Shown here piece after piece: positions 45,942 through 49,019 of a stretch of 64,000 nucleotides of DNA. Position numbers and translations under genes: made by a program. How positions within the stretch are numbered: the stretch's first letter is position 1; every line of letters begins with the position of its first letter. This DNA comes from Crossiella cryophila (lineage in GTDB: Bacteria; Actinomycetota; Actinomycetes; Mycobacteriales; Pseudonocardiaceae). A model generated the notes under the pieces. That model was not told the DNA's origin, did not search any database, and worked only from the letters and a program-made list of their open reading frames with translations. Location: positions 1,674,001 through 1,738,000 of the forward strand of contig NZ_JACHMH010000001.1 of the NCBI RefSeq assembly GCF_014204915.1, in the 5' to 3' direction.

Positions 45942-45964
45942 GGCCGCGGCCTCTAGCCGCGGTC
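45942..45964. terminator. Bidirectional hairpin between csp and the DUF2771 gene
   Basis: CCGCGGC (45944-45950) and GCCGCGG (45956-45962) form a stem extended by flanking G-C and G-U pairs, with loop CTCTA that contains the DUF2771 stop codon complement. It serves two convergent genes. Confidence 0.6.
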
Positions 45965-46435
45965 GTCCACCGAGACAACCCACGTGCCCCGCGTCCCGAA
46001 ACTCACGCCGCCCTCGGTGTTGGCGCTGATCGCCGCGCCGAACTGGTGCACCTCGATCGTCTCCAGCTGCGAGGTCGCCTCCGGCAGCTTCAGCGTGTAC
46101 GCGAGCTGCTTGTTCGGCGCGAACACCTCGCTGCGCCCGTCGATCCGCCCGTTGTCCGGCTGCCGGTAGCGGAAGACCACCTGCCAGGGCGTCTGGCCGA
46201 TCCGCGGGTCCACCGAGATGGTGACCTCCTGGCCCTTGGGCACCCGCAGCACGGCCGCGGCCTTCGAATCGGCCTGGCAGTTCTCCACCTTCACGTCGCA
46301 GTACTGCGTGGGCTTGGCCGCGACCGACTTGCCGGAGGCGAAGAAGGTCACCTCCGGCGGCCCAACGGGGCCGGCACAGGCGGCCACGCCCAGCGCCCCG
46401 GCGGTGACGAGCAGCAACGACAGTCCTCTACGCAC
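45953..46435 (-). CDS. DUF2771-type lipoprotein (Rv0875c-like position)
   Basis: The 160-aa protein starts VRRGLSLLLVTAGALGVAACAG, a lipoprotein signal with lipobox VAAC, followed by a single beta-rich domain with two more cysteines (YCDVKVENCQ). It matches the exported Rv0875c position beside the MFS gene. Function unknown; it is anchored outside the membrane. GTG at 46435 has no ribosome site; TATAGT (46450-46445) lies 9 nt upstream, indicating a leaderless mRNA. That -10 element coincides with the outer end of the long inverted repeat at 46448-46613. Confidence 0.78.
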   Translation of the reverse strand: MRRGLSLLLVTAGALGVAACAGPVGPPEVTFFASGKSVAAKPTQYCDVKVENCQADSKAAAVLRVPKGQEVTISVDPRIGQTPWQVVFRYRQPDNGRIDGRSEVFAPNKQLAYTLKLPEATSQLETIEVHQFGAAISANTEGGVSFGTRGTWVVSVDDRG

Positions 46436-46447
46436 GAACCCGAGACT

Positions 46448-46613
46448 ATAGGGCCGGTGTGCGAGGCCTCGCCCGCGATAGCCGCGCCGAGGCGGCCCCT
46501 GGCGGCACGGCCGGACCACCCGAATACGCCCGGTATGAGGGCGGCCCGGCCGCGCCACCAGGAACCACCTCGATCACGACTCTCGCAGACGAGGCCGCGC
46601 ACACAGGCCCTAT
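46448..46613 (-). repeat. Long imperfect inverted repeat (about 80-nt arms) between the MFS and DUF2771 genes
   Basis: Bases 46448-46527 pair with 46533-46613 around apex ATAC-GCCCG-GTAT (46524-46536). My hand alignment gives about 62 Watson-Crick pairs, 12 positions differing by a transition, 6 other mismatches and one bulge. All 12 transitions have the same polarity: in minus-strand RNA they become G-U wobble pairs. The right arm begins at the MFS stop codon and the left arm ends in the -10 box of the DUF2771 gene. It may be a structured intercistronic RNA, a miniature palindromic element, or a decaying duplication. Confidence 0.75.
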
Positions 46614-48226
46614 GTGGTCGCCGGACGCAGCGGCCGATCGCCTCCGAAGCCGGGGATCAGCGAGGAGCCGCGACCGGCCAGCAGGGTCTGGGTGAAGCCG
46701 ACCGCCAGCAGCACCGAGACCACGGTGAAGCCGAGCCAGTACTCCGGCGGCAGCAGCAGGCCGACCGCGCCGCCCAGGGTCCAGGCCAGCTGCAGCACGG
46801 TCTCGGAGCGGCCGAAGGCCGAGGCCCGCGACTCCTCCGGCATGTCCCGCTGCACCACCGCGTCCAGGCAGACCTTGGCCAGTGCCGAGGCGGTCGCGCC
46901 GACCAGGCCGACGATGGCCGCCGTGGTCAGCCCGCCGAAGACCGCGGCCACCACGGTGGCGGCCAGCGTGGAACCCACGCACACCAGCAGCAACTGGTCC
47001 GGCTTGGTGAAGCTCAGCCGGGCGCCCACCGCGCTGCCCAGGAAGTTCCCGATGCCTGCTGCCGCGCCGATGATGCCCAGCAGCAGCAACTGCATCACCG
47101 GCTCGCCCTGGGTCTGCGCCTTGACCGCGAAGGCGGCGAAGAGCATCAGGAACCCGGTCAGCACCCGGATGGTGGCGTTGGCCCACAGCGTGACCACCAG
47201 CACCCGGCCCATCGGCTGCCGCGCCCGCTTGGGGTGTGCGCCGACCGTGGCCGGCACCTCGCCCTCGGTGACCTCCACCCAGGCCGGGATGCGCACGCAG
47301 GACCAGACGCCGACCGCGCAGATCGCCGCGGTGAACCAGAGCGCGCCCTGCGGGCCGAAGAGCTGGCCCAGCCCGGCCGCGATACCGCCGAAGGCCACGC
47401 TGGCGACCAGGCCGAACACGGTGAGCCGGGAGTTGGTCTTGACCAGGTCCAGCTCATCCGGCAACACCCTGGGTGTCACCGCGGCCTTGAGCACGCCGAA
47501 GGATCTGGACAGCACCATGCAGCCCAGTGCGGCCGGGTAGAGCGCCCAGCTGTCGAAGTTGAGCGCCATCACCGCGGCCAGCGCGATCCGGCCGGCGAAG
47601 GAGACACCCAGAGCCAGTCGCCTGCCCTGCTGCAACCGGTCCAGCAGCGGACCGACCACCGGGGCGACCAGCGCGAACGGGGCCACCGTGATCAACAGGT
47701 AGAGCGCGACCTTGCCCTTGCTCTCCGCGCTCGCCGCGGAGAAGAACAGCGTGTTGGCCATGGCCACCGCGATGGCGGCGTCCACGGCGTAGTTGAGCAT
47801 GGTGGCGTAGGTCAGCGCGGACAGGCCGGACTCGCGGGCCCCGTCGGCGTGCACCCCGCGGCGGAAGGCACGCACCGCCTGCTGGGTCAGGTGCTTGCTG
47901 CGCCACATCATCACCCTGGTGACGGTGATCTTCTTCGGCGGCGTCGGGCCCTCCGGCTGCGGCTGCGGCGCGGTGGGCTCCTCGTACTGCTCGTCCGGGT
48001 AGTACGGCGAGGGCGGCGGCCGGTGCGGCCGGGTCGAGCGCGGGGGTGGCGGCGGCGGTGGGGGCGTGCGGCGGCGCACCGGCTCGGTGCGGCGCTCGCC
48101 CTGGTAGTCCGGGTCGTCCTGCCACGGATAGCTCCGGCCGCCGGAGTCGCCGGCGGCCGGTGGTTCGTAGCCGCGCGTGCGCCCGCGACTGCCGTTGCGG
48201 GTCGGCTCGTCGGGTCCGGGTCGCAT
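46610..48226 (-). CDS. MFS-type membrane protein with Pro-rich N-terminal tail (Rv0876c-like)
   Basis: The 538-aa protein has about 110 cytoplasmic residues rich in Pro, Arg and Tyr, then twelve predicted membrane segments of the major facilitator type (ALTYATMLNYAVDAAIAVAMA; ALYLLITVAPFALVAPVVGPLLDRLQQGRR with the MFS loop; LLLLGIIGAAAGIGNFLGSAVGARL). It is the likely counterpart of mycobacterial Rv0876c by position and layout; the substrate is unknown. ATG at 48226 follows AGGAG. It starts 7 bp after the glutaminyl cyclase gene, forming an operon. The 175-bp gap to DUF2771 is almost filled by a long inverted repeat. Confidence 0.85.
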   Translation of the reverse strand: MRPGPDEPTRNGSRGRTRGYEPPAAGDSGGRSYPWQDDPDYQGERRTEPVRRRTPPPPPPPPRSTRPHRPPPSPYYPDEQYEEPTAPQPQPEGPTPPKKITVTRVMMWRSKHLTQQAVRAFRRGVHADGARESGLSALTYATMLNYAVDAAIAVAMANTLFFSAASAESKGKVALYLLITVAPFALVAPVVGPLLDRLQQGRRLALGVSFAGRIALAAVMALNFDSWALYPAALGCMVLSRSFGVLKAAVTPRVLPDELDLVKTNSRLTVFGLVASVAFGGIAAGLGQLFGPQGALWFTAAICAVGVWSCVRIPAWVEVTEGEVPATVGAHPKRARQPMGRVLVVTLWANATIRVLTGFLMLFAAFAVKAQTQGEPVMQLLLLGIIGAAAGIGNFLGSAVGARLSFTKPDQLLLVCVGSTLAATVVAAVFGGLTTAAIVGLVGATASALAKVCLDAVVQRDMPEESRASAFGRSETVLQLAWTLGGAVGLLLPPEYWLGFTVVSVLLAVGFTQTLLAGRGSSLIPGFGGDRPLRPATT

Positions 48227-48233
48227 CACACTC

Positions 48234-49019
48234 CTAATCCTGCCGTACCGGAACGAACTTGACCCGGAACAACGCAGGCCACAGCTTGCCCGTGACCAGG
48301 AACTCGTCCGTGCCCGGGATGGCCGCGATGCCGTTGAGCACGTCAGCCCCCTCCTTCTGCTCCGGCCGGAGCAGCCCACTGGCATCCACTGTGCCGGTCA
48401 CCGCCCCGCTGGCGGGGTCGATCCGCAGGATCTCGTCGGTTTGCCACACGTTCGCCCAGACCACGCCGTTGACGCACTCCAGCTCGTTGAGGTTGCCGAC
48501 CGCGGCCCCGGCACGACGCACGGTGACCGAGCCGGTGACCGCGAAGCTGCCGGGATCGCGGAAGGTCAGCTGGTCCGAGCCGTTGCTCATGACAAGGCGG
48601 TTGCCGTCGTGGCAGAGGCCCCAGCCCTCGCCCTCGTAGCTGGCCTGGCCGGTCTGGGTCAGGGTCTGCCGGTCCCAGCGCAGCGCCAGGCCCTGCTGCC
48701 AGGTGAGCTGCCAGATCTTGTCGCCGATCACCGTGATGCCCTCGCCGAAGTGGTCGGCAGGCAGGTCAGCGCGCTGCTGGACCACGCCGGTGACCGGGTC
48801 CACCCGGCGCAGGGTGGAGTAGCCCTCCCGGCCGGTGCCCTCGTACAGCGCGCCGTCGGCCAGCTCCAGGCCCTGGGTGAACGCGCCCGGATCGTGCGGC
48901 CGGGTTTCCAGCAGTTCCACCCGAAGTTTTTCCGGTTGGGGCAGCGGCGCGTCGGCCTGGCTCACCGCGGAACAGCCGGAAAACACCAGGACCCCGCACA
49001 GCACCGCAAGCACTCGCAC
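48234..49019 (-). CDS. Glutaminyl-peptide cyclotransferase (plant/bacterial QC type), lipoprotein
   Basis: The 261-aa protein has a lipoprotein signal (VRVLAVLCGVLVFSGCS) and the five-bladed propeller motifs of plant-type glutaminyl cyclases: FTQGLELADGALYEGTGREG, HFGEGITVIGDKIWQLTW, YEGEGWGLCHDG, LNELECVNGVVWANVW, and DVLNGIAAIPGTDEFLVTGK. These enzymes form N-terminal pyroglutamate on exported proteins. GTG at 49019 is chosen as the signal start; a weak GAAG precedes it. It is co-transcribed with the MFS gene and divergent from DUF3027. Confidence 0.87.
   Translation of the reverse strand: MRVLAVLCGVLVFSGCSAVSQADAPLPQPEKLRVELLETRPHDPGAFTQGLELADGALYEGTGREGYSTLRRVDPVTGVVQQRADLPADHFGEGITVIGDKIWQLTWQQGLALRWDRQTLTQTGQASYEGEGWGLCHDGNRLVMSNGSDQLTFRDPGSFAVTGSVTVRRAGAAVGNLNELECVNGVVWANVWQTDEILRIDPASGAVTGTVDASGLLRPEQKEGADVLNGIAAIPGTDEFLVTGKLWPALFRVKFVPVRQD

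Follow-up and report, generated by a model that had tools for sequence, protein, structure and literature searches.

We analysed a window of 64,000 nucleotides from Crossiella cryophila (contig NZ_JACHMH010000001.1, positions 1,674,001 to 1,738,000); positions below are counted from its first letter, G and L numbers label genomes and loci, and G000 is the window's own genome. The locus of interest is a long hairpin between two genes for which the first-pass annotation had given an MFS transporter and a DUF2771 protein, both on the minus strand; profile matches to MFS_1 and DUF2771, both on that strand, agree. The features are as follows, 5′ and 3′ referring to the sense (minus) strand of the element.

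46610 to 48385, minus strand: MFS transporter gene (PF07690), the insertion host at its stop codon.
46611 to 46612, no strand: TA of the 5′ junction, belonging to the MFS gene's in-frame stop codon, TAG (sequence, empty sites, in-frame stop distance 0).
46451 to 46610, minus strand (sense, the well-folding strand): body of the element, about 160 nt (copy alignment, empty orthologous sites, folds).
46592 to 46610, minus strand: 5′ terminal inverted repeat, an IS5-like end, GGGCCTGTG... (end comparison with IS ends, 151 rows).
46582, minus strand: G of a 1x1 G.A mismatch, conserved, whose partner A lies at about 46479 (in alignment A1, columns 31 and 136 stay unpaired in the consensus fold).
46574, minus strand: conserved bulged A of the 5′ arm (A1 column 39, unpaired and without a partner).
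46519 to 46541, minus strand: apical region, CCCTCATACCGGGCGTATTCGGG, containing a UC/UC internal loop (also present in copies of G039, which otherwise have different stems).
46451 to 46469, minus strand: 3′ terminal inverted repeat (copy alignment and end comparison).
46449 to 46450, no strand: TA of the 3′ junction (sequence and empty sites).
45953 to 46435, minus strand: DUF2771 gene, downstream, with a likely GTG start at 46433-46435 (PF10969 on 45953-46438; start chosen by eye).

The hairpin had been placed between the MFS stop codon and the -10 box of the DUF2771 gene. The first boundary is right, the base of the stem being the stop codon TAG itself (46610-46612); the second needs amending, as the hexamer TATAGT overlaps the other junction. 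This hexamer (46445-46450), upstream of the DUF2771 gene, spans the 3′ junction, and the promoter-like sequence was changed by the insertion, since the nearest empty site has CTAGTCT there instead. Beyond the 3′-junction TA (46449-46450) stands a further TAG where the empty sites have G alone, which leaves two extra bases.

Folded as RNA, 46440-46620 forms a single hairpin on either strand, the minus strand folding better (-159 kcal/mol, z = -14.5, 0 of 200 shuffles equal) than the plus strand (-120.9 kcal/mol, z = -9.9, 0 of 200 shuffles equal), a comparison that the first-pass annotation had proposed. With DNA parameters, 46449-46612 gives -77 kcal/mol on the minus and -59.8 kcal/mol on the plus strand. 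The hand alignment of that annotation had counted 12 transition differences between the arms, all of the polarity that makes G-U pairs on minus-strand RNA, and an arm alignment weighing both transition polarities alike returns the same figure (12 G-U and 0 A-C on the minus strand). The longest unbroken run in the window copy is 7 bp as a DNA palindrome, 35 pairs in minus-strand RNA and 7 on the opposite strand.

The same hairpin, looked for at the orthologous locus, is absent: the site, which falls within the MFS stop codon TAG, is empty in all four congeners and reads CTAG in three of them and ATAG in one. The nearest empty site is ...ACCAC-CTAG-TCTCGGG, and the adjoining 800 bp are 99% identical. 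The window copy is a private insertion.

Further copies, a search for which had been suggested, were found in the own genome (12 BLAST hits, weak and reverse-strand ones included) and beyond it. Ten hairpin copies of the own genome were analysed, and an eleventh was listed by a covariance model built on 34 copies from the window's genus. BLAST hits occurred in 19 of the 60 genomes searched, the own genome included, and the model, with at most 11 candidates scored per genome, matched 83 of 249 Pseudonocardiaceae genomes in 20 of 46 genera. G213 has at least 51 distinct copies among the covariance-model matches listed. Among named records, a 25-base piece was matched exactly in Crossiella and Actinokineospora (seven stretches), and an exact 23-base core was found in no stretch of the viral contigs. 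In G039, which belongs to another family of the same order, three copies (L103-L105) have the apical 25 nt identical and the stems different, and a further copy (L023) has a different loop. The flanks of 87 loci gave orthologues and groups of two or three loci only, with no gene recurring beside the element that could mark an autonomous version, and we found no description of this family among the open-access PMC papers searched. The family is short, multicopy and dispersed, as MITEs are; the element is mobile DNA of about 160 bp, palindromic and present in many actinobacteria. Of the identities first proposed for the hairpin, a miniature palindromic mobile element is supported by the many copies, by the empty sites and by ends resembling those of the IS5 family. 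An inverted duplication of the DUF2771 promoter region, another of those proposals, is excluded by the copies elsewhere and the empty orthologous sites.

For the counts across copies, hits with more than 50 Watson-Crick pairs were kept, and nine were later dropped as not being elements. The resulting 151 rows, all of them used in the comparison of ends, represent 150 distinct copies, since L046 is the same as L237; 87 came from sequence searches and 63 from the covariance-model search (39 regions hand-picked among the matches listed). Gene context was counted at 87 loci after four duplicate loci had been removed.

Targets are mostly CTAG, often a gene's stop codon. TA is present at the target in the nearest empty site in 14 of the 24 loci examined (L001-L004, L007, L008, L013, L014, L031, L032, L042, L049, L052, L060), three empty sites have no TA at the junction (L006, CTGA; L010, TTCG; L044, CTTG), and at the other loci (L005, L009, L048, L054, L058, L074, L079) the site is unreadable, a remnant or without an empty counterpart. 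TA on both sides is compatible with a 2-bp duplication, and a non-duplicating 162-bp unit between T and A gives the identical sequence; a duplication of the four bases CTAG is rejected, since in copies such as L076 and L094 the tetranucleotide on the left is not the one on the right. One CTAG was hit twice, since L002 (own genome) and L229 (G003) are different copies there and three other congeners are empty at that place; this site is an insertion hotspot. At two orthologous sites, L121 (G001) and L183 (G002), the hairpin is gone and short pieces of both ends are left, as expected from hairpin deletion or imperfect excision.

The polarity seen in the window extends to the family. Over the 150 distinct copies, from 42 genomes, 1548 cells are G-U and 151 are A-C; 148 copies have more G-U, two have equal numbers (L020, L036) and none has more A-C. 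The copies are related, so that the counts are not independent, and the covariance model favours pairing: G-U to A-C is 891:126 in the 87 sequence-found copies and 657:25 in the 63 copies found with the model. Copy orientation was taken from homology to the window copy or to the model, which might favour G-U; orientation by the apical motif alone agrees in 114 of the 151 rows, is opposite in one, ambiguous in five and unavailable, for want of the motif, in 31. Polarity is mainly a property of the element, since it runs in the same direction in both gene and both fork orientations: copies sense to both flanking genes have 192 G-U and 17 A-C (17 copies), those antisense to both have 296 and 49 (30 copies), and the ratio is 215:12 in 19 anti-fork and 125:11 in 13 co-fork copies. 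A-C cells are somewhat commoner in antisense copies (49/345) than in sense ones (17/209). The outer 22 positions, where stems vary, have 157 G-U and 25 A-C.

A test of covariation, also proposed beforehand, was run on the 34 copies. Standard pairs make up 98.7% of the 2516 pair cells, and two-sided changes affect 37 of the 74 pairs (277 cells), a figure that none of 500 shuffles reached; slid controls gave 11-20 pairs with two-sided change, the true structure being favoured over its slid versions in that it was derived from the same alignment. The outer stem exchanges G-C for C-G, as in column 7/160 (18 GC, 14 CG, 1 AU, 1 UA, no mismatch). Some G-U pairs are fixed by column, namely 40/128 (UG, 34/34), 37/130 (UG, 33/34) and 60/108 (GU, 33/34), and so are certain irregularities: the bulged A, the G.A mismatch and the UC/UC internal loop below the apex. 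Pairing survives a G-C to T-A exchange and several C/T changes between the orthologues L054 and L225, an outcome that conversion from another copy could also explain; between L003 and L012, one of the four differences disrupts a pair. More generally, template switching or gene conversion between copies could keep the arms complementary. Uninterrupted pairing has a median of 29 on the sense strand, 16 as a DNA palindrome and 18 on the other strand. Two explanations of the one-sided polarity had been offered at the outset, selection to keep the stem and strand-biased cytosine deamination of a decaying palindrome. Deamination fits worse, because it cannot produce G-C to C-G exchanges, and the sameness of polarity in both fork and both gene orientations also speaks against it; the two-sided changes in half of the pairs and the orientation-independent polarity fit selection better.

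We compared the ends of the element with those of candidate helpers, the search covering PF13340, PF13358 and PF01797 transposases. PF13340 elements of the IS5 family are present in each of 15 genomes searched, and 22 of 46 PF13340 loci have TA-flanked ends; most of these ends are of the form CTAG-GGSCSTGTYYC, and most lie at CTAG. The proteins of one such locus, L199, match PF13340, PF01609 and the NCBIfam IS5 family transposase entry, the last in both of its frames, and the second frame of L198 matches PF01609. Set against 19 IS ends, the 18-nt ends of the element agree with the best of them at a median of 14/18 positions on each side (151 rows; best 17/18), compared with a median of 9/18 for inner control segments treated in the same way with equal offset freedom. 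Compared by eye, an element end in G202 matches an IS of the same genome at 17/18, and one in G004 matches its own L199 at 16/18 and a G012 end at 17. Terminal repeats are thus shared with autonomous IS5-family elements across genomes, though not inside the own genome, where none of the three PF13340 hits has TA-flanked terminal repeats and a resident helper was not found; nor was a PF13340 locus with TA-flanked ends found in G001, G008, G011, G025 or G213, all of which carry the element. In these genomes and the own one the helper may have been lost. An IS630 helper resident in the own genome is rejected, PF13358 (DDE_3) giving no hit there. From the likeness of the ends we infer that an IS5-family transposase would recognise them and move the element in trans.

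Leaving out L200 and L323 from the 22 PF13340 loci with ends, 10 distinct end pairs could be compared, in which the two IS ends agree at a mean of 14.5/16. The element arms have 15.05/16 Watson-Crick pairs, with 91 G-U, 12 A-C and 40 other cells (best-match offsets). IS ends are therefore slightly more unlike each other than element arms are, and the difference is small.

How the element lies relative to genes was read from codon usage at the 87 loci. Tandem flanks are sense in 17 cases and antisense in 30, and the remaining loci are convergent (22), divergent (13) or unclear (5). The first-pass annotation had also proposed a structured intercistronic RNA; as a function in the transcripts of flanking genes this is not sustained, orientation to genes not being sense-biased. 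The upstream gene's stop lies exactly at the 5′ junction in 15 of the 87 loci, the window copy included (codon-usage frames).

Orientation relative to replication is biased. We used nine single-contig genomes in which dnaA was located, with the terminus assumed to lie opposite dnaA, and the sense strand was anti-fork, i.e., the leading-strand template, in 98 and co-fork in 34 of the 132 copies listed (binomial P = 2e-8, taking copies as independent). Without the terminal third the ratio is 81:28 among copies listed. By genome, anti-fork to co-fork counts among copies listed are 10:1 in G000, 39:12 in G213, 8:0 in G254, 7:1 in G111, 13:5 in G237 and 8:3 in G003; the bias is weak in G025 (4:3) and G030 (2:1) and absent in G002 (7:8). 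At tandem copies of the own genome most flanking genes are sense to the element (5/6), so that here the bias goes with replication rather than with gene direction. Over all genomes, part of the antisense lean could reflect the fork bias by way of genes oriented with the fork. The two ends of the element hardly differ, so the cue for the bias is evidently the asymmetry of its body. Among IS elements themselves, the transposase gene of one IS5 family in G003 runs with the fork in 10 of 11 copies, and 12 of 20 PF13340 hits in G025 run with the fork. The DnaA search also returned, in G030, five equal-scoring 282-aa DnaA-like frames (PF00308) besides dnaA, which are probably ATPases of a repeated transposon, of the IstB type.

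An almost perfect fold on one strand only hints at a role in the life cycle for a folded single strand, whether RNA or DNA, and we infer selection on that strand. The simplest reading that covers the results is a MITE-like, non-autonomous element that IS5-family transposases move and whose folded sense strand is itself selected, and we hold this to be probable. An IS5-family transposase would act in trans; different copies would wear the ends of different IS5 subfamilies, nearly always as matched pairs, which would make the outer stem variable; and selection would act on the sense strand in its folded, single-stranded form. Long perfect palindromes are unstable in bacteria. With G-T or G-U pairs the sense fold would stay continuous, while the duplex would be a broken palindrome and the other strand would fold poorly. 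An orientation in which the fold-prone strand is not the lagging-strand template would limit hairpin-driven loss. The fork bias could arise at insertion or by loss. The remnant L183 in G002 fits hairpin loss, its sense strand being, by our reading, the lagging-strand template; L121 is in a draft genome and its G000 orthologue is oppositely oriented; the two cases decide nothing. Of the earlier interpretation as a whole, the mobile element is supported and selection on a one-strand stem is the better fit; the role in flanking transcripts and deamination are not supported, and the promoter duplication is excluded.

As to which single strand is selected, we lean, with less than even confidence, toward DNA exposed in replication or transposition, which we place somewhat ahead of RNA; RNA made from the element is a tentative second choice, and that G-T pairs weaken a DNA hairpin speaks for it. 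We know of no DDE transposase that acts on a folded single strand. It is doubtful, though worth stating, that the family represents a class of transposable element with a DDE (IS5-family) transposase which is nevertheless selected and propagated as a folded single strand, with a strand-specific hairpin body, a conserved apical motif, helper-interchangeable ends and an orientation set by the fork.

The alternative that survives best, and which overlaps the IS5-moved element with a selected fold, is a sense RNA hairpin, transcribed from its own promoter or arising in source-copy transcripts, with a role at the RNA level, for instance protein binding through the apical loop or an action on helper expression. 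The G-U pairs would then be ordinary wobble pairs, and the broken DNA palindrome would merely avoid instability. This seems quite possible: the G-U pairs sit at fixed columns, the apical motif is common to G039 copies with different stems, and sense pairing exceeds both the DNA palindrome and the other strand. It does not predict the replication bias, however, and copies are not oriented with flanking genes. Rfam, too, gave no match above gathering score (four matches to E 10 in 46300-46800, all far below gathering scores, and no match at six loci of the element), although this negative says merely that the element is not a described RNA family.

A neutral origin would hold that the element is an IS5-derived MITE whose arms are corrected by template switching or conversion and whose polarity was inherited from one ancestral master copy. 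Palindromes do undergo arm-correcting mutation, the core shared among copies means that some polarity is inherited, and remnants with the hairpin deleted exist (L121, L183). Arm correction would, however, erase conserved G-U pairs, so that the persistence of G-U columns is unexplained, and the polarity is kept by variable outer stems and in both fork orientations. We therefore consider this account improbable.

Movement as single-stranded DNA by a Y1 HUH transposase, as a REP/RAYT- or IS200-like element, is brought to mind by the strand-specific fold, the bulged base, the replication-strand bias and the CTAG at the ends, which resemble that class, REP features included, and two carriers (G001 and G011) have three Y1_Tnp hits each. 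It is very unlikely, as eight carriers (G002, G003, G004, G008, G012, G025, G033, G039) have no Y1_Tnp match, G000 has one partial hit with a stop, and the ends resemble those of the IS5 family. Equally remote is a transcription terminator or mRNA 3′-end hairpin selected for host genes, to which the stop codons at the 5′ junction might point, since CTAG targets account for those stop codons, four congeners lack the window copy and orientation to genes is not sense-biased.

Several described systems resemble the family in part. RUP of pneumococcus (with IS630-Spn1) and Correia/NEMIS are likewise short and present in many copies with TA at the target or ends, and RUP is described as having its ends in common with an autonomous IS (PMC2229807). 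Here, by contrast, the helper looks to be of the IS5 family and not IS630, and the whole stem is kept on one strand with covariation and a replication-strand bias. ERIC and YPAL of enterobacteria are intergenic repeats able to fold into long stem-loops; in the same paper the effects of ERIC depend on its orientation in the host transcript, and YPAL is given as 168 bp, without TA at its ends and with target duplications of 3-26 bp (PMC2229807). Both have other hosts; an orientation to genes that is not sense-biased sets the present element apart from ERIC, and TA at its ends from YPAL. In attC sites one strand is the recombinogenic fold, and chromosomal integrons keep that strand on the leading-strand template (PMC11023631); the likeness noted, a fold strand mostly on the leading-strand template, concerns fold and replication strand, whereas the present element has dispersed copies at TA/CTAG and IS5-like ends. 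Replication-related orientation bias is known for several IS families, and for IS200/IS605 single-strand transposition and replication-tied orientation are described (both PMC5371812). Unlike these and REP/RAYT, the element has IS5-family-like ends and eight carriers without a Y1 transposase match.

MITEs are usually seen as passive relics recognised by their ends alone. Here the whole body is under a one-strand structural constraint, orientation leans with replication, and both ends appear to be exchanged together, as matched pairs, for those that suit another helper. Should the mobile or regulatory form be the folded strand, one could test whether a DDE transposase can make use of hairpins at the replication fork, and by what means an element retains a working fold while carrying no unstable DNA palindrome. 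Targeting of CTAG is a simple route to a harmless landing at stop codons in GC-rich genomes.

Two loci show IS5-family sequence in other arrangements. L210 (region G000:C1:6954624-6954740) derives from an IS5-family element by internal deletion: it is short, its ends are TAGGGCGTGTCC... and between them lies a weak remnant of PF13340. It is a second, non-palindromic type of MITE in the own genome. At L266 (G154:C4:710905-711424), an IS5-family PF13340 hit stands about 120 bp away from a copy of the element, and this copy may be a nested insertion.
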